Assembly: GCF_016892705.1 (NCBI RefSeq)
Contig: NZ_JAFEMB010000001.1
Coordinates: 1,302,001-1,366,000 of the forward strand
Origin: Microvirga pudoricolor
Lineage (GTDB): Bacteria; Pseudomonadota; Alphaproteobacteria; Rhizobiales; Beijerinckiaceae
Reading direction: 5' to 3'
Length of the DNA: 64,000 nt
Part shown: positions 30,679 through 47,399 of the stretch, one piece after another
Position numbering within the stretch: the stretch's first letter is position 1
How the letters are laid out: the number at the start of each line of letters is the position of its first letter
Notes under the pieces: generated by a model
Told to the model about the DNA's origin: nothing
What the model saw: only the letters and a program-made list of their open reading frames with translations
The model's database searches: none
Translations under genes and position numbers: made by a program

Positions 30679-31665
30679 TCAAGGCGGTGGGGGACGCCCG
30701 CCGGAACCTTGCGGGTCGGGCGGACCGTCTTGATCGCTTTCACCTTCAGGCTCCATCGCGGCGAGATACGTCCGCAAGTGTCTGGCGAAATTTTTAGCCG
30801 GTCCCGATAGCGTCCGGCCTCTCAAATACTGCAATCCGAAGCTGATGCGCATCGATGAATTCTGAATCTCCCGGTACACGAGGGAATTGCCGCCAGACCG
30901 GGACGTGACGTAGCGGGGGAACACGGCAACGCCCACACCCGCTGCAGCCATTCCGAGGGCCGTGTCGATCAGAGAAACCTCAAAGGTGTGCTCGAAGGCG
31001 ATGTTCTGCTGTGTCCGGATCACATCGACCAGTCGCACCGCCGCGCTCGTCGGCCGCAAGACGACCATCCTATGTGGTCGCAGAGTCTGCCAGGTGACCT
31101 GCTCCAGGGTTTCGAGCGGGTGGTTGCGGCGAAAGACGACGGTCAGCGATTCCATCCGATCAAGCACGGGAAGAATGGCGATCTGTGGATGGGCGACATA
31201 GCCTGACGGCGTGACGGTCAGCCCGATATCGGCTTCCTCGGACAGGATATGCCGTAACGTCTCATGGCTACGACAATCATGGAACTCGATCTCGACCTCA
31301 GGGTGTTCGGCTAGAAAGCTCGCGATGACAGGCGGGAGAAGGTTGGCCGACATGTGCGGCGCCGCGGCGATCGACAATCGGCCGCGGAAGCCGGCAGCGC
31401 GCTCGCGCACCTCCTCGACCGAACGGCGGAACTGCTCCAGCAGCTTCGTGGCATGCGACAGGAATTCCTGCCCTTCCGACGTCATCGACACCTGACGTGT
31501 CGTTCGATCAAAAAGCCGCACACCCAGTTTCTCCTCGAGCTCCTTGATCCGCTTGCTCAAAGCGGATTGTGTCATCCCAAGCTCTTCGGACGCGTTCGTG
31601 TAACTATGAAACCTCGCCAGAGCGTCGAAAGACTCCAGATCGCGCATGCTGATGTCAGGTGTCAT
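30679..31665 (-). CDS. LysR family transcriptional regulator
   Basis: A 328-residue LysR protein. The N-terminal helix-turn-helix (about 6-65) reads FHSYTNASEELGMTQSALSK; an effector domain covers about 92-300. The C-terminus ends in a proline/glycine-rich tail (GSGGRPPPP). It is divergent from the two alpha/beta hydrolase genes and the Opp/Dpp-type importer, and is the probable regulator of that operon. No clear ribosome binding site fixes the start. Confidence 0.88.
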   Translation of the reverse strand: MTPDISMRDLESFDALARFHSYTNASEELGMTQSALSKRIKELEEKLGVRLFDRTTRQVSMTSEGQEFLSHATKLLEQFRRSVEEVRERAAGFRGRLSIAAAPHMSANLLPPVIASFLAEHPEVEIEFHDCRSHETLRHILSEEADIGLTVTPSGYVAHPQIAILPVLDRMESLTVVFRRNHPLETLEQVTWQTLRPHRMVVLRPTSAAVRLVDVIRTQQNIAFEHTFEVSLIDTALGMAAAGVGVAVFPRYVTSRSGGNSLVYREIQNSSMRISFGLQYLRGRTLSGPAKNFARHLRTYLAAMEPEGESDQDGPPDPQGSGGRPPPP

Positions 31666-31786: not shown

Positions 31787-32677
31787 ATGCATGAACGCTG
31801 GATCGACGTGGGAGGCATCCGCACACGTTATCTGATAGCCGGCTCAGGAGGCCGTCCGGTTGTTTTCGTTCACGGTGGAACGATTGGGGACGCCAATTCG
31901 GCATCGAGCGCGGACGACTTCATTCCCGTCGCAACGATCATGGCGGAGAGACAAACAGCCATCGCAGTCGACAGGCTTGGCCAAGGATATACCGACAATC
32001 CGCCCCTCGACGATGAAAACGGCTGGACGATGAAGGGGTCGGTACGGCACTTCATTCACTTCCTCGAGGCATTGGGGCTGGGACCTTACCACCTCGTCGG
32101 CCACTCCCGCGGCGGCTACGTCGTGACCAGGACGACTCTTGAGCGGCCCGACCTCGTGGAGAGCCTGACGATCGGCGACAGCAACACCGTCGCTCCGGGT
32201 GGAGCACGCAATGAAGGGCTGCACATTCGCAACCCCCACCCGCCAGGGAGCCGAGAAGCCCTTCGCTTTTCGACGATGCACTACTCCTTCGACCCGTCTC
32301 TGACTTCGCCGGAACTCATAGAAACGAAGCTGCGCATTCTCGGAACTGACAAAATCCGCCAGGCGATCGCCAAGATGGGTGCCGGCGGGTTGCGGGTGAA
32401 ACGATTTCTGCCCGACCTTACGGCGGACCGGGAGGACCTGTTCATGCGCCTTGAGGCTCAGCCCATCAAGCGGCGCGTTCAGATTCTTTGGGCCTACAAC
32501 GACCCGACTGCCCCGATCGAGATGGGCTACAACCTGATGCGCCTCATATCCAAGCACCAACCGCGGGTATCGATGCATGTCATCAATCAATCCGGGCATT
32601 CGCTCTACCGCGAACGCCTCCCTCAGTTCGTTCGCGTCCTCAAGGACCACATTGACGGGTGCTACGATGGCATTTGA
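31787..32677 (+). CDS. Alpha/beta hydrolase (Ser-Asp-His triad)
   Basis: A 296-residue alpha/beta-hydrolase fold protein with no signal peptide. The oxyanion motif VHGG (H29-G30), the nucleophile elbow GHSRGG (S107), the acid D239 (NDP) and the base H271 (SGHSLYRE) make a complete triad. It is the first gene after the divergent LysR and precedes a paralogue with an altered triad; the two share AGG/GGI-RTRY starts and VDRLGQGYTDNP. Probable role: intracellular hydrolysis of an ester, lactone or amide brought in by the importer downstream. Confidence 0.85.
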   Translation: MHERWIDVGGIRTRYLIAGSGGRPVVFVHGGTIGDANSASSADDFIPVATIMAERQTAIAVDRLGQGYTDNPPLDDENGWTMKGSVRHFIHFLEALGLGPYHLVGHSRGGYVVTRTTLERPDLVESLTIGDSNTVAPGGARNEGLHIRNPHPPGSREALRFSTMHYSFDPSLTSPELIETKLRILGTDKIRQAIAKMGAGGLRVKRFLPDLTADREDLFMRLEAQPIKRRVQILWAYNDPTAPIEMGYNLMRLISKHQPRVSMHVINQSGHSLYRERLPQFVRVLKDHIDGCYDGI

Positions 32678-33569
32678 TATCCCGACCATGGGCAAGGCGC
32701 AGTTCATGGACGCCGGCGGCATCAAAACCCGCTATTTCGAGCGCGGGAGCGGCCCTTGCGTCGTCCTTCTGCATGGTGGCCACATGGGCTCGCCGACCGA
32801 GGTTCAGACGGCCTCGGTTTGGTCGACCATCTTCGACAGACTTGGAGACGGCATTCGAGTCATCGCCATCGATCGCCTCGGACAAGGATACACGGACAAC
32901 CCGAAAGCAGCTGATGATTATACGCTCGATGCGAGCGCCGCTCACGTAGCGGCCGTACTGAGAGAGTTCGGCAATGGGCCCTACCACCTCGTGGGCCATG
33001 ACGAGGGCGCGTTCGTAGCGGCCCAGATCTCCGTCGAACATCCCGGGCTCGTCGCCAGTCTTGTGCTGGTCTCGGCCAATACGCTGACGCCAGGCGTCGA
33101 CCGACGCAACATCGTTCAGGCCAATCCGCCCGTGCCGCTTATGAGCCGGCAGAGCTTGCGCTGGATGTTCGAGACAGCTTCTCCATCGCACCTTTCGGTT
33201 ACGGAAGAGTGGCTTGACGAACCAGTAGACGTCGCAAAGAGCGACAGGAATGTGGAAGCCGTAGAGGTCATGCAGGCCGACGACCGCTATCTGCGCTCCT
33301 ATGTGGGTTCTTGGAACCGCAGGCGCTCCGAATTGCATCGCTTCATCCATGCCAACGGCTTACCCTGCCCAACTTTGGTGGTCTGGGGCCTCGACGACCC
33401 CATCGCTCCTTTCAGCAATGCGGAATACCTGATGGAGCTTTTGGCGCCGAAGCAGCGGGAAACCGAGCTTCGCGTCTTCAACCGCTCCGGCTATTACGTG
33501 TTCCGCGAGCATCCTAACGCTTTCTGCAGAACCGTCCGGTCATTTGTGGAATCCCACACGAACGCATAA
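32667..33569 (+). CDS. Alpha/beta-hydrolase-fold protein with Asp at the nucleophile and no catalytic His
   Basis: A 300-residue paralogue of the preceding gene. The nucleophile elbow reads GHDEGA, so Asp112 replaces serine, as in epoxide hydrolases and haloacid or fluoroacetate dehalogenases (GHDxG). The acid position is kept (D244 in LDDP), but the base position reads SGYYVFRE: Y276 stands where the paralogue has H271. H282, six residues on, is the nearest histidine. The start is the ATG at 32667, overlapping the previous gene by 11 bp; the open frame continues upstream only as overlap. The function could be covalent capture, a non-hydrolytic reaction, or a binding role. Confidence 0.8.
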   Translation: MAFDIPTMGKAQFMDAGGIKTRYFERGSGPCVVLLHGGHMGSPTEVQTASVWSTIFDRLGDGIRVIAIDRLGQGYTDNPKAADDYTLDASAAHVAAVLREFGNGPYHLVGHDEGAFVAAQISVEHPGLVASLVLVSANTLTPGVDRRNIVQANPPVPLMSRQSLRWMFETASPSHLSVTEEWLDEPVDVAKSDRNVEAVEVMQADDRYLRSYVGSWNRRRSELHRFIHANGLPCPTLVVWGLDDPIAPFSNAEYLMELLAPKQRETELRVFNRSGYYVFREHPNAFCRTVRSFVESHTNA

Positions 33570-33593: not shown

Positions 33594-35156
33594 ATGATGA
33601 CACGAACGCTCTTAGTTTTCGCATCCCTGTTGATGTCAGGCGCCGCGAGCGCACAGAATCTCAAGATGGGCCTTGGCGGGCAGATTACGTCTCTGGACCC
33701 GCATTATCACAGCGCCTCGCCCAATGCCGCCTTCTCCTACACCATTTTCGACCGCTTGACCGGAACGGACGAGAATGCCCGCCTCCAGCCAGCGCTTGCG
33801 ACGAGTTGGAAGATGATTGACCCGCTGACGTGGGAATTTAAGCTGCGCGAAGGCGTGAAGTTCCACAACGGAGAGGATTTCACGGCCGAAGACGTCGTCT
33901 TTACGTTCGAGCGCATTCCGAAAGTCACGAACAGCCCCGGCCCTTATACAAGCTATCTTCGTGGCATCGAGCGCACCGAGATCGTCGATCCCCTGACACT
34001 GCGCATCAGGACCAGCGAGCCGGTGCCGACGCTGCCTCTCATGCTGCAACGCATCACCATCCTGGACAGCAAGACACACGCCAACGTCACCACGGAGGAC
34101 TTCAACTCTGGAAAGGCGCTGATCGGGACTGGCCCGTTCAAATACGTTTCCGGAAGCAGCATCTCAGGGGTCAAGCTCGCCAGAAACGACCAACATTGGG
34201 GTGAGAAGGCCGCGTGGGAGACGGTCGACTACCGGGTCGTCGCCAACAATGCGGCACGGACGGCAGCCCTCCTGTCGGGCGACGTGGACATGATCGACCA
34301 GGTATCCAGTGCCGACGTCCCGCGCCTGTCAACAAACAACGCCTTCGAGGTGGTGAACGCGACAGGCTTGAGACTGATGTACATCAACCTCGACCACTCG
34401 CGAAAAGAAAACCCTGTCTTCATCACCGATGCCTCGGGCAAACCGCTCGCGAAGAACCCCTTGACGGATGTCCGGGTGCGGCAAGCCTTGTCGCTGGCTA
34501 TCGACAGAAAGGCACTCGCAGAGAGGGTCATGGATGGACTTGCCGTTCCGTCCATGCAGTTCATGCCCCCGGATACCTATGGATATGCGGCCGACATCGC
34601 GGCTCCTGCGGCAGATCCAGCGAAGGCGCGAGCATTGCTGGCTGAAGCGGGCTACCCTCAAGGCTTCCAGATCACCCTCCATGGGTCGAATGACCGCTTT
34701 CCCAACGACGCTCGCGTGTTGCAGGCGATTGGACAGATGTGGACGCGCATCGGCGTGAAGACGAATGTTGACGCCATGCCTTACGGACCGTTCCAAAGCC
34801 GGGCGAGCAAGCAGGAATTCGCCGCCTTCCTTGGCACGTGGGGCAGTGCTGGGGAGCCGGGAATCGGGATGACCAACACTCTTGCCACTTTCGACAAGGA
34901 AAAGGGCACTGGCTCTATCAACCGCGGGCGCTACAGCAACCCCGCCTATGATGTGGCCCTTGCCGCAGCGGTCAGCGAAATCGACGATACCAAGCGCGAG
35001 CAGGCCTTTCAGCAGGTGATGCGCGATGTCTTGAATGATATGCCGATCCTGCCGCTGTACATTCAGAAGAACACTTGGGCATTGAAAAAATCAATCGCGT
35101 TCAAGGGGCGCGCTGATGAACTCACGCTTCCGCAGGAAGCCAAGCCCTCGCCATAG
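33594..35156 (+). CDS. ABC transporter substrate-binding protein, peptide/Opp (family 5) type
   Basis: A 520-residue periplasmic binding protein. The signal peptide ends at GAASAQ (about residue 21), followed by the family start NLKMGLGGQITSLDPH. The family 5 signature WEFKLREGVKFHNGEDFTAE is present. These proteins capture di- or oligopeptides, nickel, opines or glycosides; the ligand here is unknown. It follows the hydrolase pair by 24 bp and precedes the two permeases and two ATPases. Confidence 0.92.
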   Translation: MMTRTLLVFASLLMSGAASAQNLKMGLGGQITSLDPHYHSASPNAAFSYTIFDRLTGTDENARLQPALATSWKMIDPLTWEFKLREGVKFHNGEDFTAEDVVFTFERIPKVTNSPGPYTSYLRGIERTEIVDPLTLRIRTSEPVPTLPLMLQRITILDSKTHANVTTEDFNSGKALIGTGPFKYVSGSSISGVKLARNDQHWGEKAAWETVDYRVVANNAARTAALLSGDVDMIDQVSSADVPRLSTNNAFEVVNATGLRLMYINLDHSRKENPVFITDASGKPLAKNPLTDVRVRQALSLAIDRKALAERVMDGLAVPSMQFMPPDTYGYAADIAAPAADPAKARALLAEAGYPQGFQITLHGSNDRFPNDARVLQAIGQMWTRIGVKTNVDAMPYGPFQSRASKQEFAAFLGTWGSAGEPGIGMTNTLATFDKEKGTGSINRGRYSNPAYDVALAAAVSEIDDTKREQAFQQVMRDVLNDMPILPLYIQKNTWALKKSIAFKGRADELTLPQEAKPSP

Positions 35157-35263: not shown

Positions 35264-36235
35264 ATGACTACTTGGTTGGCACAGCGTCTCGTTCAATCGG
35301 TATTCGTTGTGCTTGTCATGACTGCGATCGTTTTCGTCGGCGTCAACGTGATCGGCGATCCCGTCTCGATCCTGATCTCGCCTGACGCCAATCAACAGGA
35401 ACGCGCGAGAATCGTCGCTGAGTTCGGTCTCGATCAGCCTTTGTGGAGCCAGTACCTTTCTTTCCTGAAGGGCACTCTTCAGGGGAACTTCGGCAATAGC
35501 TTCGTCTACGGCATGCCGGCCCTTCAGGTCATTCTGAGCCGCATGCCGGCCACGATGGAGCTGGCGATTGCGGCGATCTTACTTTCGGTTCTGATAGGCG
35601 TTCCACTCGGGCTCTACGCTGGTCTTCGGCCCCACTCGTTCTTCGCCAAATTCATGATGGCTGGCTCGATCCTCGGATTCTCCGTGCCGCTGTTCTGGTT
35701 GGCTCTGATCCTGATCATGTTCTTTTCCGTCTATCTCGGTTGGCTTCCGGCAAGCGGCCGCGGCCAGACCGTGGACTTTCTCGGGATCGGCTGGTCATTC
35801 TTTACGTGGGATGGGCTCTCTCATCTCTGCCTGCCGGTACTAACTCTCTCGATCTTCAAGATCTCGCTCATCATGCGCATGGTAAGAGCTGGCGTCCGCG
35901 AGGTGTTGCCCCAAGAGTATATTAAGTTTGCCAGAGCCAAAGGGCTTTCGAGGCAAAGATTGCTTTATGTGCACGTTTTGAAGAACATCATGATCCCAGT
36001 CGTGACGATCATCGGCCTTGAGTTCGGCTCATTGATCGCTTTTTCGGTCGTCACCGAGTCCATCTTCTCTTGGCCGGGGATGGGAAAGCTCATCATCGAC
36101 AGCATCAACGTGCTCGATAGACCCATGATTGTCGCCTATCTGATGATTATCGTGTTCATCTTCGTCACGATCAATCTGATCGTGGACATTCTCTACACGA
36201 CGCTCGATCCACGTGTGCGACTCTCCCGTGATTAA
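35264..36235 (+). CDS. ABC transporter permease, DppB/OppB type
   Basis: A 323-residue inner-membrane permease with six predicted helices. The N-terminal helix is followed by the family motif (ERARIVAEFGLDQPLWSQY), and the cytoplasmic EAA-like loop reads VREVLPQEYIKFARAKGL. It pairs with the next gene to form the channel of the importer. Confidence 0.93.
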   Translation: MTTWLAQRLVQSVFVVLVMTAIVFVGVNVIGDPVSILISPDANQQERARIVAEFGLDQPLWSQYLSFLKGTLQGNFGNSFVYGMPALQVILSRMPATMELAIAAILLSVLIGVPLGLYAGLRPHSFFAKFMMAGSILGFSVPLFWLALILIMFFSVYLGWLPASGRGQTVDFLGIGWSFFTWDGLSHLCLPVLTLSIFKISLIMRMVRAGVREVLPQEYIKFARAKGLSRQRLLYVHVLKNIMIPVVTIIGLEFGSLIAFSVVTESIFSWPGMGKLIIDSINVLDRPMIVAYLMIIVFIFVTINLIVDILYTTLDPRVRLSRD

Positions 36236-36245
36236 GGATACCCCG

Positions 36246-37175
36246 ATGTCGGCACATGCCAGCAGCGCATCTCGTTCCGAACAGGACGAGAAACTTCCGA
36301 TCACTGAAACGCCGGTGCGGCGCATGGTCCGGGAGTTCATGGCTTCCCCGTTGGCGGTTTCGGGCTTAGTCGTGCTGTCGGTCCTGAGCCTTCTTGCCAT
36401 TTTCGGACCTTTTATCGTCCCGCAGAATCCCTATGATCTCATGCAGTTGGACATTATGGATAGCCAGCTCGAGCCTGGCGCGCAATCCGTGGCCGGCATG
36501 ACATACTGGCTGGGTACGGACGACCAAGGCCGCGACATGCTTTCCGGCATCATCTATGGTCTTCGCACATCGCTTGGCGTTGGAGTCATCTCAGCCCTCG
36601 TTGCAGCGTTGATCGGCACATCAATAGGAATTTACGCCGCCTACGCTGGAGGGCGCACAGAAAACCTCATCATGCGGGTGATCGATCTTCAGCTCTCGTT
36701 TCCAACAATTCTTGTCGCGTTGATGATCCTTGCCTTTATGGGACGCGGCGTGATGAACGTCATCCTGGCCCTTATAATCGTCGAATGGTCGACTTATGCC
36801 CGCACCGCGCGCGGTGTCGCTCTCGTCGAGCGTCGCAAGGAATACATCGAGGCCGCAGAGTCGCTTGTTATCCCTCGCTGGCGTGTCCTCTTCAAGCACC
36901 TGCTGCCAAACTGCCTGCCTCCCCTGATCGTAATTGCCACGGTCCAAGTCGGACGCTCCATTACCCTTGAGGCCACTTTATCCTTTCTCGGCCTCGGCGT
37001 TCCAATCACGGAACCCAGCCTCGGCTTACTGATTTCAAACGGGTATCAGTACATGCTTTCAGGCAAGTACTGGATCAGCTTGTATCCAGGAATCATGCTT
37101 CTCGTCATTATCGTGGCCATCAATTTGGTCGGCGATCAACTTCGCGACGTCGTCAACCCGAGGAGGCAGGCGTGA
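36246..37175 (+). CDS. ABC transporter permease, DppC/OppC type
   Basis: A 309-residue permease. The cytoplasmic N-terminus has RRMVREFMASPLAVSGL, then a first helix and the conserved YWLGTDDQGRDMLSGIIYG loop. The EAA loop reads RKEYIEAAESLVIPRWRV. The start at 36246 follows AAGGAT with suitable spacing; an ATG 33 bases earlier overlaps the upstream gene and is less likely. Confidence 0.93.
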   Translation: MSAHASSASRSEQDEKLPITETPVRRMVREFMASPLAVSGLVVLSVLSLLAIFGPFIVPQNPYDLMQLDIMDSQLEPGAQSVAGMTYWLGTDDQGRDMLSGIIYGLRTSLGVGVISALVAALIGTSIGIYAAYAGGRTENLIMRVIDLQLSFPTILVALMILAFMGRGVMNVILALIIVEWSTYARTARGVALVERRKEYIEAAESLVIPRWRVLFKHLLPNCLPPLIVIATVQVGRSITLEATLSFLGLGVPITEPSLGLLISNGYQYMLSGKYWISLYPGIMLLVIIVAINLVGDQLRDVVNPRRQA

Positions 37176-38194
37176 ACGGCTTTGCGTCGGATCCCAAGAC
37201 GATGCATTCCTCGAGCCGGGCGCTGCTTGACGTCCGTGGCCTGAAGGTCAAATTCAAGACGAACCGTGGAGAAGGCACGGCCATCAATGATGTGTCGTTC
37301 ACCTTGAGGCGTGGAGAGGTTCTCGGCTTGGTCGGCGAGTCCGGGTCCGGAAAGTCGGTCACCGGAATGTCGCTCATGGGCCTCATCGAGAATCCTGGAC
37401 GCATCTGCGGCGGCCAGATCCTCTTCGATGGTATCGACTTGGCCAAACTATCCGACCTGGAAATGGAGCGGCTGCGCGGCAAAAGGATCGCGATGATCTT
37501 CCAGGATCCGATGATGACTCTCAATCCGGTCCTGCGGATCAGCACGCAGATGATCGAGACCGTACGTGCTCACGACGATGTGACACTGGTGGAGGCGCGC
37601 CGGCGGGCCCGTGATGCTCTCGGGCAGGTGGGCATACCAAGACCGGAGGAGCGGCTCGACGCATACCCTCATGAGTTTTCAGGGGGAATGCGCCAGCGTG
37701 TTGCGATCGCAATCGCGCTGCTCCATAAGCCGGATCTGATCATTGCCGATGAGCCAACCACAGCCCTCGATGTCACGATCCAAGCCCAGATCCTGTCGGA
37801 GGTGCAGAAGCTCACGTCTGAGTATGGCACGGCGCTGATTTGGATCACTCATGATTTATCGATCGTGTGCGGACTGGCGGACAATGTCGCGGTGATGTAT
37901 GGGGGTCAGATTGTCGAGTATGGGCCAGTCGCGGAGGTCATCCGAAGCCCCCGGCATCGCTATACAGATGGTCTTCTGAATTCCGTTCCGAGCCGCAACA
38001 GACGCGGAGATAGATTGCGGCAGATATCCGGGTTCGCACCGTCGATCTTCAGTATGCCGCAAGGGTGCGCTTTTCGCCCGAGATGTTCATTCGCGGACGA
38101 CGCCTGCCATCAGACGCCCCCTTTGGCCACACACGGCAACCATGCCCATAGGTGTTGGCATCCGATCAGTTCCCGGGAGGGTCTCGGCTCATGA
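37172..38194 (+). CDS. ABC transporter ATP-binding protein, DppD/OppD type
   Basis: A 340-residue ATPase. Walker A GESGSGKS at residues 55-62, signature FSGGMRQRV, Walker B LIIADEPTTALD and the H-loop ITHD are present. The C-terminal oligopeptide-type cysteine motif includes CAFRPRCSF. The start is GTG, overlapping the upstream stop (GTGA), with an AGGAGG site upstream. Confidence 0.94.
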   Translation: MNGFASDPKTMHSSSRALLDVRGLKVKFKTNRGEGTAINDVSFTLRRGEVLGLVGESGSGKSVTGMSLMGLIENPGRICGGQILFDGIDLAKLSDLEMERLRGKRIAMIFQDPMMTLNPVLRISTQMIETVRAHDDVTLVEARRRARDALGQVGIPRPEERLDAYPHEFSGGMRQRVAIAIALLHKPDLIIADEPTTALDVTIQAQILSEVQKLTSEYGTALIWITHDLSIVCGLADNVAVMYGGQIVEYGPVAEVIRSPRHRYTDGLLNSVPSRNRRGDRLRQISGFAPSIFSMPQGCAFRPRCSFADDACHQTPPLATHGNHAHRCWHPISSREGLGS

Positions 38195-39252
38195 ACCCCG
38201 CGCAGTCCCCACACGGCGCATTATCGACCACTGGACGGTCTCCGGACGTCTTGCTGGAAGGCCGTAACCTGTCCCGGGTCTTCGGGCGGAAGACCGACTT
38301 GGTAGCCCAAGCTCTCATCAAAGCGGGACTGGCACAGCCTCCCAAGATGCTTCGGGCCGTCGACCGTGTCGATCTGACGATTAAGAAAGGCGAAGTCGTT
38401 GGCTTGGTGGGTGAGTCGGGATGCGGAAAGTCCACGCTAGGACGCGTCATCGCAGGCATCATCGACCCCACCGAAGGTGAGCTGTTCTGGCAGGGCTGCG
38501 ATATTCGCTCTCTCAGCAGTGCTGAAAGGCGGCAGATCAAACTCGGTGTCCAGATGATTTTCCAGAACCCGTTTGCATCGCTCAATCCGAGGATGACCAT
38601 CGAAGATGTCGTTGGTGAGGCGCCTCGCATCCATGGCTTCATCCAACGAAGCGGCAAAAGCAGCGTCGAGTATATAGATGAGCAGATGCGACGCGCCGGC
38701 CTGCCACCTGCCCTCAAGTCGCGCTACGCGCATGAATTGTCAGGTGGACAGCGGCAACGCATCGGTATCGCGCGAGCTTTGGCTGTACAACCGGAGGTCC
38801 TGGTCTGCGACGAATCCGTTGCGTCGCTCGACGTGTCCATTCAGGCGCAAATCATCAACCTGTTCATGGACCTGAGGCAGGAGTTGCAGCTCACCTACCT
38901 CTTTATCAGTCACGATCTCAGCCTTGTTGAGCACATCTCGGATCGGGTCATCATCATGTATCTGGGGCGCGTTGTCGAGGAGGCGCCGGTCGAAGAGATA
39001 TTCTCTCACCCCAATCATCCATATACTCGAGCGCTCCTAGCTGAAATTCCCAGGCTGGAGACGACGAAACGCCGCTTCACAGCACTCAAGGGCGAATTAC
39101 CGAGTCCTATGAGCCCACCGCCGGGCTGTCACTTTCATCCCCGCTGCCCTCATGCCTTCGAGCGCTGCAAACTTGAGACGCCACAGCTGAAAGAAGTTGC
39201 ACCCAACCATGTTTCGGCTTGCCATTTGAATGATGCTGGTCAGGGAATCTAA
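38191..39252 (+). CDS. ABC transporter ATP-binding protein, DppF/OppF type
   Basis: A 353-residue ATPase. Walker A GESGCGKS at residues 74-81, signature LSGGQRQRI and the C-terminal cysteine cluster PGCHFHPRCPHAFERC are present. The ATG overlaps the previous stop (ATGA). Last gene of the first importer module. The 140-bp gap that follows holds no obvious gene or terminator. Confidence 0.94.
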   Translation: MNPAQSPHGALSTTGRSPDVLLEGRNLSRVFGRKTDLVAQALIKAGLAQPPKMLRAVDRVDLTIKKGEVVGLVGESGCGKSTLGRVIAGIIDPTEGELFWQGCDIRSLSSAERRQIKLGVQMIFQNPFASLNPRMTIEDVVGEAPRIHGFIQRSGKSSVEYIDEQMRRAGLPPALKSRYAHELSGGQRQRIGIARALAVQPEVLVCDESVASLDVSIQAQIINLFMDLRQELQLTYLFISHDLSLVEHISDRVIIMYLGRVVEEAPVEEIFSHPNHPYTRALLAEIPRLETTKRRFTALKGELPSPMSPPPGCHFHPRCPHAFERCKLETPQLKEVAPNHVSACHLNDAGQGI

Positions 39253-39392: not shown

Positions 39393-40292
39393 TCAAAGGC
39401 TGCCGGAATACCCTCGAAGGATTGAAGTCGCTCTTGTGGCAATCTCGCGGGCTGCCCTGCTCAATGGCTTCTTCTGCCCCGTTACGAGGACAACGTAACG
39501 ATTGATGTAAGGATTGCGAATTGTAGCGCTTGCAAACACTCGGTCCTGCTTTTCACTCAGAATCGTATGGGGGGCTTTGACCATGTAGCAGCCGCAATGG
39601 AGCGTCATCTCCTTCTGGGCAAGGATCGAGTCCGCTTCGGCGACGATCGTGAGGCTGATTTTCAGACGCTTCGCCGCCGCATCGACAGCCACGCGCAAAC
39701 CATTGGTCAGTGCCGGAAGGACGAGAGGAACATTGGAAAGCTCCGCGAAATCGATCTCCTCGGGCAGATCCCAATCAGCTGAATTTCCTGCCAGAACGAG
39801 CCGAGAGTCGAACATCAGGCTACGAGAATCCAGAACATTCTCCTTGTACTTGCTGTAGATTCCAACCTCAACAACGCCTTCAGCGAGCCAGTGTTCGATC
39901 TGCTCGCTGAATCCCTCATAAATGCGCAGACGGATGCCCGGGCGTTCGCTCCGGATCTGGTTCAGCAGATTTGGTATGATATAGGGGATCAGCGAGGGCG
40001 GCAGCCCGATCGAGACGTGTCCGCTGGGAAGGCGGTTGAACGCTCTAAGGTCTTCAGAAATCTGATCGACCTCTCGCAGCACGGATTGGGCTCGCGCCAA
40101 AGCCTCATGTCCGAGTTCCGACAACTCCACTCCGCGTCCGGTGCGGTAGAACAATGCGCCGTCCCACTCGACTTCCAGTTCGCCGATGATCCGACTGATC
40201 GTCGGCTGAGCTAGGCCGAGCGAGATGGCAGCCTTTGTGAAGCTCCCCAATTCGGCGGCCCGAGCGAATGTACGCAGATGCTCCAGATTCAT
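39393..40292 (-). CDS. LysR family transcriptional regulator
   Basis: A 299-residue LysR protein with a helix-turn-helix at about 3-60 (MNLEHLRTFARAAELGSFTK) and an effector domain from about 90. The start at 40292 is the best family match; ATG codons at 40307 and 40334 are also in frame and none has a strong ribosome binding site. It is divergent from the CUT1-type importer operon and is its probable regulator. Confidence 0.85.
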   Translation of the reverse strand: MNLEHLRTFARAAELGSFTKAAISLGLAQPTISRIIGELEVEWDGALFYRTGRGVELSELGHEALARAQSVLREVDQISEDLRAFNRLPSGHVSIGLPPSLIPYIIPNLLNQIRSERPGIRLRIYEGFSEQIEHWLAEGVVEVGIYSKYKENVLDSRSLMFDSRLVLAGNSADWDLPEEIDFAELSNVPLVLPALTNGLRVAVDAAAKRLKISLTIVAEADSILAQKEMTLHCGCYMVKAPHTILSEKQDRVFASATIRNPYINRYVVLVTGQKKPLSRAAREIATRATSILRGYSGSL

Positions 40293-40337
40293 CGGCACGT
40301 CATCCATATTTTGGATATCGGATATTACTAACATGTA

Positions 40338-40363
40338 CTAGACGGATCGCAAACAACGTCTAG
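40338..40363. promoter_or_regulatory. Inverted repeat between LysR and importer operon
   Basis: CTAGACG (40338-40344) and CGTCTAG (40357-40363) are perfect reverse complements, separated by 12 bases. They lie between the divergent lysR and the binding-protein gene and are a good operator candidate. Nearby A/T-rich repeats (GGATATCGGATATTA, about 40314-40328) may be part of the same region. Confidence 0.5.
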
Positions 40364-40440
40364 CATGCTTCCAATATAAGACTTCGGGCAGTCCTCCGTG
40401 GATTGACCCAGAAGCCAAAAAGCACCAAACGGAGGAACGC

Positions 40441-41781
40441 ATGGGACGCTATCGCGCGCGGACTGGCGCAGGAATCGCCAGCTCGCTATTCTTTGTTCTC
40501 GTTTCCACATCGGCTTTCGCGCAAACCAAGGTCGTGCGTTTTCTACATAACGAGACCGATCCACCCAGTATTGAGTTCTACAATAAGGCCATCAAGGATT
40601 TCGAGGCGGCGAACCCGGATATCAAGATCGAGATGGAAGCCGTCAGCACCGACGGGCGTCTCCAAAAAGTTCTGGCCTCTATCAACACGAAGACTATGCC
40701 GGAAGTTTTCAAACTGCTTCCCGAAGAGAGGTTCGAATTTGCCCGGAAAGGTTATTTAGTCCCCGTCGATGACGTCATCAACGAAATCGGTTCTTCAGAC
40801 TACGTTCCTGGATCGCTCGTGCCGGTCGAAGGCAAGACGTACGACATTCCCTACACCCTAGGCAATTACGGCGTGCTCTGGCAACGCGATGACATGCTCA
40901 AGGCGAAGGGACTCGAGACACCAAAGGACTGGGATGAACTGAAGACGGCAGCAAAAGCCCTCACCAGCGACGGCAATTTCGGATTCATCTACCCAGCCGG
41001 CAAGAACCGCATGGCTAGCATCTATCTGTCAGCGATGATCTGGAATGCCGGGGGCACCTATTTTGACAAGGATCTCAATGTCAGTTTCGACAATCCAGGA
41101 ACTGTCAAGGCATTGACCTTTCTAAAGGAGATGGCTGCGTATTCGCCGTCCGGCATCGGTTCTTACTCCTACGGAGACATGATCAATGTCTATCTGACGG
41201 GCAAGATCGGTCTCGACATCTATGCTCCGCGTCTGGCAGCCAATGCCGCAGTGAATACACCGGAGATCTTCAAGAACACGAGCGCGAAGCCGATGCCCGC
41301 CGGGCCGAGCGGCGTCGCGGTCAAGTTCGTGAACGCCAATAGCTTCGCACTTTCGTCTCCCGCAGTAGGATCGAAGAACGTCGATGCTGCGCGCAAATTC
41401 CTGAAATTCATCGTGACAGGGGAACGCCTCGAACAGTTCTCGCTCACGGCCTATCCTCACCTTATCCCTCCGCTGAAAGGTGTTCAGGAGAAGGTTATCA
41501 AGATGGGTGCGGCGCAAGTTCTGAACGGTCGCGAAGATATCGGACGTCTTTCCTTCGACACGTCGAATTCCCTTGACTTCGAGTCGGAGGCGGGAGCCGT
41601 CTTTAAGGACGGGAAAGTGATACGCTCCGGCGTGGTGAACCCCTATATCGGCTCGATCGTCGCCAGAGGAATACCCGCCGAAGTCGTGCAGCGTGTCGTC
41701 CTTCAGGGCGAGGATCCCGCCAAGGCTGCGGCGTGGGGCCAAGAGCGCATGAAGCGGGTCGTCGACGATCTCAAGAAATAG
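40441..41781 (+). CDS. ABC transporter substrate-binding protein, family 1 (sugar/CUT1 type)
   Basis: A 446-residue periplasmic binding protein. The signal peptide ends TSAFAQ (about residue 28), followed by TKVVRFLHNETDPPS. A GGAGG ribosome binding site lies upstream. Families of this type bind sugars, glycerol phosphate, polyols or other oxidised small molecules. The next genes encode a lyase, the ATPase, two permeases, an enolase-superfamily enzyme and an MFS carrier, so the ligand is probably a catabolic substrate rather than a peptide. Confidence 0.9.
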   Translation: MGRYRARTGAGIASSLFFVLVSTSAFAQTKVVRFLHNETDPPSIEFYNKAIKDFEAANPDIKIEMEAVSTDGRLQKVLASINTKTMPEVFKLLPEERFEFARKGYLVPVDDVINEIGSSDYVPGSLVPVEGKTYDIPYTLGNYGVLWQRDDMLKAKGLETPKDWDELKTAAKALTSDGNFGFIYPAGKNRMASIYLSAMIWNAGGTYFDKDLNVSFDNPGTVKALTFLKEMAAYSPSGIGSYSYGDMINVYLTGKIGLDIYAPRLAANAAVNTPEIFKNTSAKPMPAGPSGVAVKFVNANSFALSSPAVGSKNVDAARKFLKFIVTGERLEQFSLTAYPHLIPPLKGVQEKVIKMGAAQVLNGREDIGRLSFDTSNSLDFESEAGAVFKDGKVIRSGVVNPYIGSIVARGIPAEVVQRVVLQGEDPAKAAAWGQERMKRVVDDLKK

Positions 41782-41802
41782 CTGTCGAGATCCACTAACA
41801 GC

Positions 41803-41822
41803 GCCCGCGTTTTGGCGCGGGC
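41803..41822 (+). repeat. Intercistronic hairpin after the binding-protein gene
   Basis: A 7-bp stem, GCCCGCG (41803-41809) and CGCGGGC (41816-41822), with the loop TTTTGG. It sits between the binding-protein gene and the lyase gene. The T-run in the loop is not a terminator tail. It matches the hairpin pattern after the other two binding-protein genes in this window. Confidence 0.6.
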
Positions 41823-41842
41823 TACACCTCCGGAGAAGTTCC

Positions 41843-43402
41843 ATGCCACAGGATCAGGCGGCCAGCCCGGTCGTGTCCCTGCGCGAACGCGTCAAGTCCC
41901 CTCCTGCAAAGTCGATGGTGGACTCCTACTTTGCCCCTGCAATCGCGGCCGGGATCAAGTTCCAGTTTGACTCCGAGATGAAGGTGCATCTGGCGCATGC
42001 CCTCATGCTCGCCGAGCGCGGCATCGTTGATCGATCAGAGGTCGCGCAAATCATCGCAACGCTCTTGAACTTGCGAGATGTCGGCGTCTCGGCGCTGACC
42101 ATCGATTACCAACAGGAAGACCTTTTCTCCTATATTGAGCGCTACATCGTGGAGCGTCTCGGGCCTAGTACGGGAGGGCGGCTGCATACGGGTCGAAGCC
42201 GGAATGACATGCACGTGACCTCGTGGCGGCTTGCCCTGAGAGCACGACTTGTGGACCTGATGAAGGTTGTCCTTGACCTTCGGCGCACACTGATCCGTCT
42301 TGCCGGTCAGCATGTCGATACCGTGATGCCGGGATACACTCATACCCAGCATGCTCAACCTATCTCCTTCGGGTACTATCTCCTGGCCGCTGCCGATCTT
42401 GTCGAAAGAGACTTTGCAAGGCTCGCCGGCGCCCTGTCGCATGTCGATCGTAGCCCCTTGGGCGCGGGTGCGCTCTCGACAACAGGGTTCCCCATCGATC
42501 GGGACATGACCCGCGACCTGTTGGGTTTCGCGGAACTCGTCGAGGTCGGATATGACGGAGTTGCCATTCGCGACGACGTGCACGAAACCGCCGCCGCCGT
42601 CGCCATCCTCATGACGGGGATCTCGCGGGCGGCGACCGATCTGCAGACTTGGAATACGATGGAGTTTGGTTTCATCGAGCTTGATGATGCCTACTCCAGC
42701 GTGAGCAGCATCATGCCGCAGAAAAAAAATCCGCAGGCGCTCGAGCACGTGAAAGGTGTTGCTGCGATCGCCATCGGCGCTCTCACGACTGTACTGGCCT
42801 GCAGCAAGAACACTCATCTCGCTGATGTGAATGACGGCGTTTCGGCACCCAACGCTCCTGCATTGGAAGCCATCGAACGCGTCATCCGATCACTTATTGT
42901 CTTTGAAGGGACTCTCTCTACCCTGAAAGTCCGCACAGACGTCATGCTGCATTCAGCAGAGATTGGCTTCGGGACGGCAACAGAGCTTGCCGACATCATC
43001 GTCCGAGAGACGGGGCTGTCGTTCCGCATGGCTCACAATGTCGTGGGTAAAGTCGTTCGCGAAGCGATCGAGGCAGGCCGCATCGCAACCGATATTACCG
43101 CGTCCGACCTTGACGCGGCCTCTCAATCCTTGTTCGGACACGCTCTCAACATCTCCGAGGATAAGGTTGCGACGGCACTCGATCCTGCCGAAAACCTGAA
43201 AACGCGTACCGTCACGGGTGGCCCTGCGCCGGAGCGAATGGCCGAGATGCTTGCTAGACGGACAAGCGATCTCGACCGAGACTCTCACGGTGTCGACGAG
43301 ATCGTCCGCAGGGTGGCGGATGCGGATGCGCGGCTCGAAGACCAAGCTCGGCACTTAGTGGCCAGCTCCAGTCCGACCGCTCCATCAAAGATCGTGAGTT
43401 AA
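41843..43402 (+). CDS. Argininosuccinate-lyase-like (fumarase/aspartase superfamily) enzyme
   Basis: A 519-residue lyase. The superfamily signature SSIMPQKKNP is at residues 288-297, with the probable catalytic serine S288 or S289; GGRLHTGRSRND (111-122) and PGYTHTQHAQP (163-173) are argininosuccinate-lyase motifs. The usual N-terminal LWGGRF of ArgH is absent. The protein is about 55 residues longer than typical ArgH, mainly at both ends. Beta-elimination of an N-substituted amino acid to fumarate plus an amine is the general expectation. Its place inside a transport operon points to catabolism, not arginine synthesis. Confidence 0.8.
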   Translation: MPQDQAASPVVSLRERVKSPPAKSMVDSYFAPAIAAGIKFQFDSEMKVHLAHALMLAERGIVDRSEVAQIIATLLNLRDVGVSALTIDYQQEDLFSYIERYIVERLGPSTGGRLHTGRSRNDMHVTSWRLALRARLVDLMKVVLDLRRTLIRLAGQHVDTVMPGYTHTQHAQPISFGYYLLAAADLVERDFARLAGALSHVDRSPLGAGALSTTGFPIDRDMTRDLLGFAELVEVGYDGVAIRDDVHETAAAVAILMTGISRAATDLQTWNTMEFGFIELDDAYSSVSSIMPQKKNPQALEHVKGVAAIAIGALTTVLACSKNTHLADVNDGVSAPNAPALEAIERVIRSLIVFEGTLSTLKVRTDVMLHSAEIGFGTATELADIIVRETGLSFRMAHNVVGKVVREAIEAGRIATDITASDLDAASQSLFGHALNISEDKVATALDPAENLKTRTVTGGPAPERMAEMLARRTSDLDRDSHGVDEIVRRVADADARLEDQARHLVASSSPTAPSKIVS

Positions 43403-43406
43403 CTCA

Positions 43407-44465
43407 ATGGCGCAGCTTGAAATTCGACAGGTCAGCAAGGTCTTCACGGACCACACGGCGGTCTCCAATGTCAGCCTCACCGTGAACGACGGCGAATTCC
43501 TAGTCCTGCTGGGCCCATCCGGTTGCGGCAAGAGCACGTTGCTTCGCATGATCGCAGGGCTCGAGCTGCCAACCTATGGTGACATCGTCATCGGCGGACG
43601 TTTAGCCACGCGACTACAGCCCAAGGATCGGAACATCGCCATGGTGTTCCAGAACTATGCACTTTACCCTCACCTGACAGTCTACGAGAACATCGCCTTT
43701 CCGCTTCGCGTCCGGGGGGCAAATACAAAGAACGTCGACGAGAAAGTGAGATGGGCTGCAGGTCTCGTAGGGCTCGACAGTCTCCTGAAGCGCAAGCCGC
43801 GTCAGATGTCGGGTGGCGAAAGGCAGCGGACGGCACTTGCGCGTTCGCTTGTACGGGACCCTGATGTCTTTTTGCTGGACGAGCCGCTCTCAAACCTCGA
43901 TGCCAAGCTGCGACATTCGGCACGGGAGGAATTGCGTCAGTTTCAAGACCGCGTTGGCGTGACGTCAGTCTACGTCACCCACGATCAAGTGGAGGCCATG
44001 GGTCTCGGAGACCGGATCGTCGTGATGCAGGGTGGGACCGTAAGACAGATTGGCACACCCGAAGAGATCTATCAGTATCCAGCGGACACCTTCGTGGCGA
44101 CCTTCATGGGTTCCCCGCCCATGAACCTGATTCAGCAAGACGATATCACCCTGGGCTTTCGCCCGGAGAACTTCCTGCCCGAGAGCAATTATCCGTCGGG
44201 AAGCGATGTTACCCGCATCGCATTTCGTGTTTATAGGGTGGAGTATCTTGGAGGCGATCGGCTCCTCTATGGTCATGTCTGCGGGGGCTTGCCCGAGACG
44301 CCGGCGATAGCCCGGATACCGTCGAGCGTCTCCTACTCCCCTGTCGTCGGATCGGAGACGCCCTTCGCGGTCGCCACGGCAGACCTACGACGCTTCGAAA
44401 CATCGAGCGGCAGGGCATTACCGGTTGACGGAATAGTCGTCGAGCGGAGGCTTGCCCATGGCTGA
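43407..44465 (+). CDS. ABC transporter ATP-binding protein, UgpC/MalK type
   Basis: A 352-residue ATPase. Walker A GPSGCGKST starts at residue 36, the signature is MSGGERQR and Walker B reads VFLLDEPLSNLD. A C-terminal TOBE/OB-like domain includes GFRPENF. It energises the importer of this operon. It lies 4 bp after the lyase gene and overlaps the next permease by 8 bp. Confidence 0.94.
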   Translation: MAQLEIRQVSKVFTDHTAVSNVSLTVNDGEFLVLLGPSGCGKSTLLRMIAGLELPTYGDIVIGGRLATRLQPKDRNIAMVFQNYALYPHLTVYENIAFPLRVRGANTKNVDEKVRWAAGLVGLDSLLKRKPRQMSGGERQRTALARSLVRDPDVFLLDEPLSNLDAKLRHSAREELRQFQDRVGVTSVYVTHDQVEAMGLGDRIVVMQGGTVRQIGTPEEIYQYPADTFVATFMGSPPMNLIQQDDITLGFRPENFLPESNYPSGSDVTRIAFRVYRVEYLGGDRLLYGHVCGGLPETPAIARIPSSVSYSPVVGSETPFAVATADLRRFETSSGRALPVDGIVVERRLAHG

Positions 44466-45354
44466 CGCCCGCGCGGCAATGGATGGCGATCGCACGCTCG
44501 CCTATGCGACACTGGCCCCAAGTTTCTTCCTGCTGGTTCTTCTTGCGGCCGTTCCAACAGTCACCGTGTTCGCGACGGCCATGCAGGATGTCGGCATGGG
44601 AGACATGTCCGGTCCTTATGTAGGCTTTGAGAATTTTGCCTGGGCTCTCGAAAGCCAAGCATTCTACACAGCCTTATGGAACACGTTTGTCTGGGTCTTC
44701 GGAAGCGTAGCGATAGAGATGATTTTCGGTCTTGGACTGGCGCTCCTTCTCAACAAGACATTTCTGTTTCGTGGCGTCGCCCGCGCAGTCATCCTGGCAC
44801 CATACCTGGTGCCGACGGTCGTGGCCGTTCTTGTCTGGCGCTACATGTTCCACGATATCGTCGGCATCATCAACGCTGGACTTATCACCGTCGGTGTAAT
44901 CGACAAGCCGCTTCTATGGCTCAACAGCCAGTCCCTGGCCATGACATCGGTCATTCTCGTCGGCGTCTGGAAGTTCTTTCCCTTCGTGGTCATTGCACTT
45001 CTTGGCATCCTTCAGTCGATCCCTCAGGAGCAGTACGAAGCCGCTAAAATCGACGGTGCCAGTGGCTTTCAGCAGTTCTGGCGTATCACCCTCCCCTATG
45101 TGATGCCGGTCTTCCTCCTGACGGCGCTCCTGCGCACCATCTGGAGCTTCCATAAGTTCGAGATCATCTATCTGATGACAGGAGGCGGTCCCCTCGACGC
45201 GACGACGACGCTGCCGATCCTTGTATACCTGAAGGCTTTCTCGGATTTCGAGTTTGGACGTGGAGCGGCTGTCGCCATTCTGACCTTCACGATTCTGATC
45301 GTTTTCCTCGGACTGTACTTCCTCCTCATCAAGCGCGCGGAGGCTCACCAATGA
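44458..45354 (+). CDS. ABC transporter permease, sugar type (UgpA/MalF like)
   Basis: A 298-residue inner-membrane permease with six predicted helices. The EAA loop reads EQYEAAKIDGASGFQQF. The ATG at 44458 follows a GCGGAGG site; an upstream TTG is not used. It pairs with the next gene to form the channel. Confidence 0.92.
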   Translation: MADARAAMDGDRTLAYATLAPSFFLLVLLAAVPTVTVFATAMQDVGMGDMSGPYVGFENFAWALESQAFYTALWNTFVWVFGSVAIEMIFGLGLALLLNKTFLFRGVARAVILAPYLVPTVVAVLVWRYMFHDIVGIINAGLITVGVIDKPLLWLNSQSLAMTSVILVGVWKFFPFVVIALLGILQSIPQEQYEAAKIDGASGFQQFWRITLPYVMPVFLLTALLRTIWSFHKFEIIYLMTGGGPLDATTTLPILVYLKAFSDFEFGRGAAVAILTFTILIVFLGLYFLLIKRAEAHQ

Positions 45355-46253
45355 CATCGGCAACCCTGTCCATCGCAACGGCTCCGGATAGACCGCGACG
45401 TAACCATGAGCTGGCGGACGTGCATCATCTTGCCTCGCGCATGATGGTCTATCTTCTGGCTTTCACGGCCGTGTCCGTTGTCGGATTCCCGCTCTTTTGG
45501 ATGGTGCTATGTTCCTTTAAGCCTGGTGGCGAACTCTATGCGACCCCCCCAAGCTTCCTACCACGGGAATGGACACTGCAGAATTACCGAGACCTCTTCG
45601 TTCAGACTAACTTTCCGACCTACTTCGCGAATAGCCTCATCGTGGCGGGAGGAGCGACCGTTCTATCGCTTGTGATTGGAGGCCTCGGCGCCTATAGCCT
45701 CAGCCGATTCAAGTTCTTCGGGATAGCCGCTTTCTCAAATGCGGCACTGATCTGCTACATGCTACCTGAGGTTCTGATCGTTCTTCCGCTCTATATCTAT
45801 GTAGTGAAACTCGGCCTTGCCGATACCCTGATCGCGCTCATCATCGCCAACACGGCATTTACGCTTCCGCTCGCGCTCTGGTTCATGCGATCCTACTTCA
45901 ACGCCATACCTGTCAGCCTGGAAGAGAGCGCGATGATCGATGGCTGCACACGACTGCAGGCCATGTACAAGGTCACAGTGCCGCTCGCGCTTCCTGGCAT
46001 TATCTCCGTCGGTGTTTTTGCCTTCAACCATGCGTGGAACGAGTTTCTTTTCGCTCTTGTCTTCACTTCCTCAGAGCGGAACAAGACACTGCCGCTCGGT
46101 CTCGCCACATGGATTGGGCAGGACAACATCTACTCTTGGGGGATGCTGCTCGCTGGGGCCGTTCTCGTCACGATTCCTGTCGTACTCTTCTATCTGCTCG
46201 TTCAACGCAAACTGGTCGTCGGACTGTCCGATGGCGGTGCCAAGGGCGAGTAA
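45351..46253 (+). CDS. ABC transporter permease, sugar type (UgpE/MalG like)
   Basis: A 300-residue permease with six predicted helices. The EAA loop reads EESAMIDGCTRLQAM and the C-terminal half has the characteristic NHAWNEFLFALVF. The ATG overlaps the previous stop (ATGA). Together with the preceding gene it completes the importer. Confidence 0.93.
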   Translation: MTSATLSIATAPDRPRRNHELADVHHLASRMMVYLLAFTAVSVVGFPLFWMVLCSFKPGGELYATPPSFLPREWTLQNYRDLFVQTNFPTYFANSLIVAGGATVLSLVIGGLGAYSLSRFKFFGIAAFSNAALICYMLPEVLIVLPLYIYVVKLGLADTLIALIIANTAFTLPLALWFMRSYFNAIPVSLEESAMIDGCTRLQAMYKVTVPLALPGIISVGVFAFNHAWNEFLFALVFTSSERNKTLPLGLATWIGQDNIYSWGMLLAGAVLVTIPVVLFYLLVQRKLVVGLSDGGAKGE

Positions 46254-46285
46254 CTGTCGCCGCTCTTTCTAGACCTGAGGTCATC

Positions 46286-47392
46286 ATGAAGATCAAGAAT
46301 GTCACCGTCATTGCCGTTGAGATTCCGCTCTCGAAGAACTTCGGTGGCAGCCGGTACAACGTCACGAAGCGATGCACGATCATCACCCGCATGGAAACGG
46401 ACGCAGGGTTGATCAGCGAGGTCTATAACGGCGACAACCGGGATCATATGCATGAGGTTGTCGAGATCATCGAGAAGGAGCTGACGCCTCTCGTGATCGG
46501 GGAGGATGTGTTTGCCATCGAGCGCATTTGGCAAAAGCTTTTCAAGCAAGCCGAATGGAATCGTGATCGCAAGCTCGTCATGGAGGCGATCGCGTGCATC
46601 GACAGTGCAGTCTGGGATCTCATGGGCAAGGCCGCCGGCGTGAATGTTTGCCGGCTCCTCGGAGGCTATCGCCAAGAACTGCCGATCATCTGCATCGGCG
46701 GGTATTATGAGGAAGGCAAAACCCTTTCGGATCTCGGTCGCGAAATGGAGCGCCTCAAGGAGGCGGGGCTCGCTGGCTGCAAGGTCAAGGTCGGCGGCAT
46801 GACGGCTGAGAAGGATGCCGAGCGTGTGGAAGCCGCCCGCAAGGGGGCTGGCGACGACTTCATGATTGCGGTCGACGCTAACCGCGGCTGGCCGGTCTCC
46901 GAGGCGGTGCGCTTCGCACGCATGATCGAGCAGTATGACATTGCTTGGTTCGAGGAGCCGTGCCACTGGCACGATGACGCGCGAATGATGGCGCAGGTGC
47001 GCCGTTCTACGCGTATCCCGATCGATGCAGGCCAGAGCGAAGCAACCAGCGCCGGAGTTCGGCGTCTTGTGGCGGAAGGAGCAGTGGACATCGTGAACTT
47101 TGACGCGTCGGAAGCTGGAGGCATTACCGAGTGGCGACGGGCTGCAGCGCTATGCTACCTCAACGACATTCGTGTCGGCCATCATGAAGAGGCCCAGATC
47201 GCCATGCATATGATCGCTGCCATTCCGAACGGATTATGTGTCGAGTGCTTCGAACCGGCCCGCGACCCTATCTGGGCAGAGATGATTGCCAACCGTCCCA
47301 ATCCAAAGAACGGCATCATTCAGGTCCCTCAGGGACCTGGATTTGGACTTGAGTTGAACTGGGACATGATCAAGCGCTTCCAAGTGCATTGA
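46286..47392 (+). CDS. Enolase-superfamily enzyme (mandelate racemase/muconate lactonizing family)
   Basis: A 368-residue enzyme. The KxK base motif is K166 and K168. The metal ligands D197 (AVDANRG) and E223 (FEEPCHW) are present, and H299/H300 sits in VGHHEEAQ. The third ligand region reads DAGQSE: by eye the usual GE position is Q250, with E252 two residues on. The start at 46286 gives the normal length; the open frame continues upstream inside the permease gene. It likely racemises, epimerises or dehydrates a carboxylate brought in by this operon's importer. Confidence 0.85.
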   Translation: MKIKNVTVIAVEIPLSKNFGGSRYNVTKRCTIITRMETDAGLISEVYNGDNRDHMHEVVEIIEKELTPLVIGEDVFAIERIWQKLFKQAEWNRDRKLVMEAIACIDSAVWDLMGKAAGVNVCRLLGGYRQELPIICIGGYYEEGKTLSDLGREMERLKEAGLAGCKVKVGGMTAEKDAERVEAARKGAGDDFMIAVDANRGWPVSEAVRFARMIEQYDIAWFEEPCHWHDDARMMAQVRRSTRIPIDAGQSEATSAGVRRLVAEGAVDIVNFDASEAGGITEWRRAAALCYLNDIRVGHHEEAQIAMHMIAAIPNGLCVECFEPARDPIWAEMIANRPNPKNGIIQVPQGPGFGLELNWDMIKRFQVH

Positions 47393-47399
47393 GCCCGAT

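Follow-up and report, generated by a model that had tools for sequence, protein, structure and literature searches.

A rare, base-less aspartate variant of a MehpH-like hydrolase in a tandem gene pair of Microvirga pudoricolor

Results

The window analyzed here is a stretch of 64,000 nucleotides of Microvirga pudoricolor (contig NZ_JAFEMB010000001.1, positions 1,302,001 to 1,366,000), and positions are counted from its first letter. On its forward strand lie two alpha/beta hydrolase genes, A (31787..32677) and B (32667..33569), the 3' end of the former overlapping the start of the latter by 11 nt. The translation of A (31787-32674) contains the motifs LVGHSRGG (S107), AYNDP (D239) and QSGHSLYRE (H271), that is, a Ser-Asp-His triad in which the Ser is followed by Arg (R108). 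The MehpH-like protein encoded by B (32667-33566, 300 aa) displays instead LVGHDEGA (D112), GLDDP (D244) and RSGYYVFRE (Y276), followed by H282. Accordingly, the nucleophile position and the next one, which is Arg in the Ser sister proteins, are occupied by Asp112 and Glu113 (codons 33000..33005, +), the acid position by Asp244 (33396..33398, +) and the base position by Tyr276, encoded by TAT and followed by Tyr277 (33492..33497, +). A longer frame of B is possible from 32577; the start chosen was 32667, and matches of relatives begin at residues 4-19 of this shorter form, mostly 5-12, one contig-edge match being excluded.

The first-pass annotation of this DNA had described B as a hydrolase with an Asp nucleophile, a Tyr at the place of the base His and a conserved acid, overlapping a paralogue with a full triad inside a transporter operon, and had proposed structure prediction as a check of the elbow. 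Our analysis bears this description out. In the AlphaFold2 model of B, built from 40 input sequences (pLDDT 93.9, pTM 0.93), D112 is found between strand 106-111 and helix 113-124, which is the nucleophile elbow, in agreement with the translation and with the alignment to the paralogue; D244 follows strand 236-241, and Y276 follows strand 266-271. Asp244 is the counterpart of Asp239 in A, and Tyr276 stands where A has His271 and where the homologue from a Bosea metagenome-assembled genome (MAG) also has Tyr.

The importer genes of the operon accompany this pair. A divergent LysR regulator lies upstream (30679..31665, -), and downstream, on the + strand, we found a substrate-binding protein similar to the oligopeptide/nickel type (33594..35156), which is under all the curated family cut-offs listed and whose PDB matches include peptide, heme and agrocinopine binders among others; the Opp/Dpp-like permeases B (35264..36235) and C (36213..37175), also under curated cut-offs; and two ABC ATPases recognized by sequence motifs, DppD-like (37172..38194) and DppF-like (38152..39252, the longest frame, whose true start may be downstream). 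The Bosea MAG shares the entire gene order: LysR, A, B, binding protein, two permeases and two ATPases. Another Opp-type importer comes after the pair in the Rhodobacterales copies, and its permease B reaches 182-188 bits against that of the window, compared with 531 bits for the Bosea one. All 19 B-clade loci with upstream sequence have a gene of the A clade directly before B (L026 is at a contig edge). Genes of a window-like importer are present at 12 of these 19 paired loci, with the binding protein only at L011 and the ATPases only at L017, and are absent from the stretches examined at the remaining seven (L018-L021, L024, L025 and L073, which is the C7 pair of genome G566; 10-19 kb for L020, L021 and L073), so the link with the importer is common and not universal. 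The genomic context suggests that the Asp pairs are tied to the uptake, and probably to the breakdown, of a small molecule.

By sequence, the top PDB matches of B are the monoalkyl phthalate hydrolases 8hgv, 8hgw and 26qv. The best structural match of its model is MehpH, the monoalkyl phthalate hydrolase of Gordonia (PDB 8HGV/8HGW), with Z 40.2, rmsd 1.7 A, 282 residues and 28% identity, followed by C-C hydrolases (Z about 29-32), the haloalkane dehalogenase 8ooh, which shares the fold at a value well under that of MehpH (Z 29.9, 265 residues, 20% identity), and fluoroacetate dehalogenases (about 29). The ranking for an Asp/His orthologue, L010, is broadly the same. Thus B resembles the MehpH group in sequence and along nearly the full length of the fold, including elbow, acid and lid, and departs from it in the Ser-Asp-His triad (Ser125 is replaced by Asp112 and His291 by Tyr276) and in the Arg after the nucleophile (Arg126 is replaced by Glu113). 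The C-C (meta-cleavage product) hydrolases CarC, DxnB2 and BphD, similar to B in fold (Z about 30-32), work with a Ser nucleophile and a His base, as agrees with the titles of PDB entries of Ser-to-Ala and His-to-Gln mutants. On sequence and fold, B is a MehpH-like enzyme by descent and not a dehalogenase.

This outcome qualifies the dehalogenase framing of the first-pass annotation, which had compared B with engineered dehalogenases that trap their ligand. As regards residues the comparison stands, as B carries an elbow Asp and a non-basic residue at the His position, like HaloTag. As regards family it does not: ester hydrolases are closest, and membership in the haloalkane dehalogenases was rejected with scores far below cut-off (NF002938, 55.0 bits against 241; NF002043, 43.1 against 265; NF002873, 33.7 against 466). 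In haloalkane dehalogenases the Trp after the Asp nucleophile acts as a halide ligand, and this place is taken by Glu in 6 of 6 Asp proteins of our alignment. With regard to the Asp/His/Asp set of fluoroacetate dehalogenases, the window and Bosea proteins have no His, and the Asp/His orthologues L010, L038 and L039 have the three residues but with the acid at the position of window D244. The fluoroacetate dehalogenase RPA1163 shares with B the Asp nucleophile and the fold (Z about 29), and its engineered base-less forms resemble the state of B; however, identity is 16-18%, RPA1163 naturally has His280, B groups with ester hydrolases, and the acid of RPA1163 is Asp134 (PMC13383635), well ahead of Asp244 in sequence order. 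The nearest relatives, the low scores and the Glu after the nucleophile therefore weaken the framing, and the analogy is valid for residues alone.

One scan of species genomes yielded 29 loci, all included in an alignment of 53 rows, and one 31-bit match (L029:2550-3383) was dropped. Copies of proteins already in the set were removed from the larger alignment of 74 rows, in which some near copies remain, so that the following tallies are rows and not events. The nucleophile column contains Ser in 68 rows and Asp in 6, while all 74 rows have Asp as the acid. After the nucleophile, Arg appears in 65 rows, among them 15 of 15 Ser-B rows, and Glu in 6, which are exactly the Asp rows. At the base column there is His in 71 rows, Tyr in two (window and Bosea MAG) and Ser in one (G566); hence three Asp rows have His, two Tyr and one Ser. 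His is lost in three of the six Asp rows and in none of the 68 Ser rows (Fisher p 0.0003, ignoring shared ancestry), perhaps in two events. The open reading frames are intact in all six Asp members.

The Bosea MAG protein (L009) deserves particular attention. It has the same Asp/Asp/Tyr set and TAT base codon as window B, at an identity of about 62% and in a matching operon. A single-strain mutation, which would have undermined the initial reading, is contradicted by this independent assembly since the Asp/Tyr state is present in a second species, and a sequencing or reading error is ruled out by the same copy. B is a rare, real variant of a known hydrolase group. Two further Asp copies came from plasmids of Sagittula stellata and Ponticoccus alexandrii (4 of 24 plasmid records examined) and one from the class-wide genome sample, in G566.

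The search for additional Asp members used genome samples with mutual overlap. With P0001 as query (E 1e-30), matches were obtained in 1 of 200 relatives, 1 of 48 genomes of the genus, 1 of 397 of the order and 1 of 67 of the genus of the Bosea MAG; with the Sagittula protein, in 9 of 385 genomes of the class (1e-30), 1 of 390 of the order of Xinfangfangia (1e-30) and 1 of 398 of the phylum (1e-40); and with the G566 protein (E 1e-25), in 1 of 43 genomes of the order of G566. The sole match was the window's own genome in the samples of relatives, genus, order and phylum, and the genome used as centre in the Xinfangfangia-order, Bosea-MAG-genus and G566-order samples; among the nine class matches, Asp members were those of the window's own genome and G566 only. 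As scoring was limited to at most 5 to 11 candidates from each genome in the relatives, order, class, Xinfangfangia-order and phylum samples, absence there is no proof. Among viral contigs, 159 pattern matches included no relatives.

In the tree, the A clade is composed of 20 upstream genes, all with Ser, and five close Asp proteins form one clade (100/100), united with 15 Ser-B proteins at 98/99. In the free tree the Asp protein of G566 lies outside the Asp clade, which counts against a single origin, although a single Asp clade was not rejected (p-AU 0.547). Its loss of His is possibly independent. The proteins of the Asp operons, A as well as B, have long stems (1.01 and 0.94), suggesting a joint change of the pair. 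As base codon, the window and Bosea MAG have TAT and the three Asp/His orthologues CAT, one transition apart. From the tree we infer that B descended from a Ser-His-Asp enzyme in which the change at the elbow preceded the loss of the base; the simplest order would be from Ser-Arg to Asp-Glu and then from His to Tyr, the window and Bosea proteins being sisters at a support of 58/32 only.

Discussion

MehpH grips the carboxylate of its substrate through a positively charged centre, and Arg126 gates the pocket and stacks on the phthalate ring; R126A keeps 2.66% of the activity and the other replacements tested, Glu included, obviously reduce it (PMC9977937). The five close Asp proteins combine the Asp nucleophile with Glu at the position of Arg126 and Asn at that of Ala151. 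The A partners keep the Arg and have the same Asn. The pocket charge of B is probably reversed, judging from these residues, and a reversed charge would argue for a cationic or neutral ligand.

The reading that we favor, tentatively and as a possibility rather than a probability, is that B could be an acidic-pocket ligand-binding subunit, or a specificity partner of the Ser enzyme A, in which multi-turnover ester hydrolysis has been lost. B is the second member of a co-conserved MehpH-like tandem pair, placed here with an oligopeptide-type importer, and its multi-turnover hydrolysis would be gone because the water-activating base is missing. It would hold an imported substrate or product, probably cationic or neutral, and would assist or regulate A, possibly as a heteromer. 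In this sense, B may retain its target, bound or trapped, rather than cleave it. In favor of this reading are the restriction of His loss to Asp rows, the single 100/100 clade of the five close Asp members, the A gene directly before B at 19 of 19 loci, the Glu of all Asp rows at the place of Arg126, the dN below dS between the window and Bosea B genes, and the raised identity of these two in the lid and acid-loop stretches. Several observations weigh against it: the faster evolution of B in Asp operons is also compatible with a partial loss of function, the three Asp members with His could be full Asp-triad enzymes, so the Asp itself may be catalytic, importer genes are absent from the stretches examined at 7 of the 19 paired loci, and the elbow stretch is only 65% identical between the window and Bosea proteins.

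The first-pass annotation raised the idea of a natural counterpart of ligand-trapping dehalogenases. In such a covalent trap, Asp112 would attack the electrophilic carbon of an alkyl halide, epoxide, sulfonate or activated ester, and the Asp-ester, which could not be hydrolysed for lack of the His, would serve HaloTag-like capture or sensing. We regard this alternative as unlikely. The elbow Asp and the lost base are what such a trap would need, and there is an engineered precedent: DhaA H272F traps the ester at D106 (PMC13376172), an aromatic residue replacing the base His in a protein with an Asp nucleophile, as in B, although DhaA H272F/HaloTag was engineered from a haloalkane dehalogenase, unlike the natural B. 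In RPA1163, Asp110 is the nucleophile, and the water for the attack on the ester intermediate is presumably deprotonated by His280 (PMC13383635). If His deprotonates the water and its removal traps the ester, B should not turn over in this way unless another base takes part. Additionally, the PDB holds H280N and H280A forms of RPA1163, the title of 5k3a (H280N with fluoroacetate) stating that both protomers react, and the Asp/His members would suit an ancestor that was an Asp-nucleophile enzyme. Nevertheless, no electrophile or halide context was found among the operon genes, Glu113 lies beside the nucleophile in a protein whose nearest family is that of ester hydrolases, and a one-turnover protein needs a reason for bulk production, with none visible. 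The existence of an Asp member whose base position is Ser, and the faster evolution of Asp copies, agree with a binding or pseudoenzyme role as well as with covalent capture, or better. A fuller version, in which B would be a natural counterpart of HaloTag that took an Asp nucleophile, inverted the pocket charge and dropped the base, so that the substrate brought in by the importer would stay on it in a stable Asp-ester, to be stored, sensed or passed on to A, seems decidedly improbable to us. A search of the full-text literature, weak because most subscription journals were outside its scope, found no natural base-less Asp-nucleophile hydrolase.

Non-hydrolytic reactions exist on the alpha/beta hydrolase fold. 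It is conceivable, if rather unlikely, that Asp112, Glu113 and Asp244 form an acid-base or cation/metal site for an isomerisation, a lyase reaction or a dehydration that proceeds without His. The strict pairing of Asp112 with Glu113, seen nowhere else in the alignment, and the retention of Asp244 even where there is no His to orient would agree with changed chemistry, but this residue pattern also fits binding only.

Another explanation, quite improbable in our opinion, is that B became less important after the switch of Ser to Asp and that the loss of His is the drift of a decaying paralogue. The B/A rate ratio has a median of 2.24 in Asp operons (range 1.51-2.35; 9 of 10 pairs) versus 0.87 in Ser operons (0.38-1.87; 89 of 91 pairs), in a comparison of operon pairs that share branches and are non-independent. 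These medians leave out pairs with an A distance below 0.05, namely two Ser pairs and Sagittula/Ponticoccus (A distance 0.008, ratio 4.24). Drift is also suggested by the replacement of His in two ways, by Tyr and by Ser, and by the single transition that turns CAT into TAT. However, the six Asp members remain open, and the overlap and operon order are retained. Between the window and Bosea MAG, dN is lower than dS for B (0.300 and 1.319) as for A (0.211 and 1.655), values whose ratios are rough since dS exceeds 1. Moreover, the identity of these two B proteins rises to 75% at residues 141-180 and 80% at 241-260, the lid and acid-loop stretches being the most alike, with only 65% in the elbow stretch 101-120. 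None of the nine pairs counted has a lower B/A ratio than the Asp/Tyr pair (1.51), which indicates that His was lost without relaxation beyond that of the Asp switch.

Finally, an active hydrolase with a displaced base is highly improbable: H282, which was suggested at first and is close to Y276 in sequence, is a family residue and not a new base, as it is present in 10 of 14 sister proteins that keep Ser and the normal His and is Gln in one Asp/His orthologue, and H39, although its counterpart in MehpH, His53, is part of the phthalate pocket lining (PMC9977937), is Tyr in the other Asp/Tyr protein, so both were rejected on family conservation. H125 and H175, retained here as weaker cases, are His in the window, L009 and L010 and not in 14 Ser-B rows, and H175 is within the lid region of the AlphaFold2 model; yet L010 keeps its base His, both residues are missing from L038, L039 and the G566 protein L066, and no His of window B is unique to base-less proteins.

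The apparent steps of the path are found in living species, from Ser-His in the sister proteins to Asp-His in three Rhodobacterales and Asp without His in the window, the Bosea MAG and G566. This series makes the order of nucleophile first and base later testable, and with its naturally matched proteins one can ask at which point an Asp-nucleophile hydrolase turns into a trap, a binder or a new enzyme.

Some minor observations concern the surroundings of these genes. The Asp/His operons of the Sagittula and Ponticoccus plasmids (L038:11085-19462 and L039:11085-19461), typed respectively as conjugative and non-mobilizable, have near-identical hydrolases, a common gene order and an Opp-type importer, together with a gene that the records call M20 peptidase or amidohydrolase and that matched no family at 1e-10 in a Pfam scan. 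In G566, the divergent GHDEGA protein whose base position is Ser (L066:1498-2766; G566:C4:41017-41880, -) adjoins a GQSAGA partner, and the stretch of this Asp pair (L072) also encodes an SBP_bac_5 binding protein, an FAD monooxygenase, a 2-hydroxyacid dehydrogenase and an OprB porin. Ser/Ser hydrolase pairs are placed between Opp-type permease and ATPase genes at L012-L016, and two (L022:5956-7760) or three (L023:4551-7753) adjacent MehpH-like Ser hydrolases lie beside Opp-type permease genes. Within the window, positions 39393-48659 hold a LysR regulator, an SBP_bac_1 binding protein with its importer, an argininosuccinate-lyase-like protein, an enzyme of the mandelate racemase/enolase type and an MFS transporter, which looks like a separate catabolic cluster.
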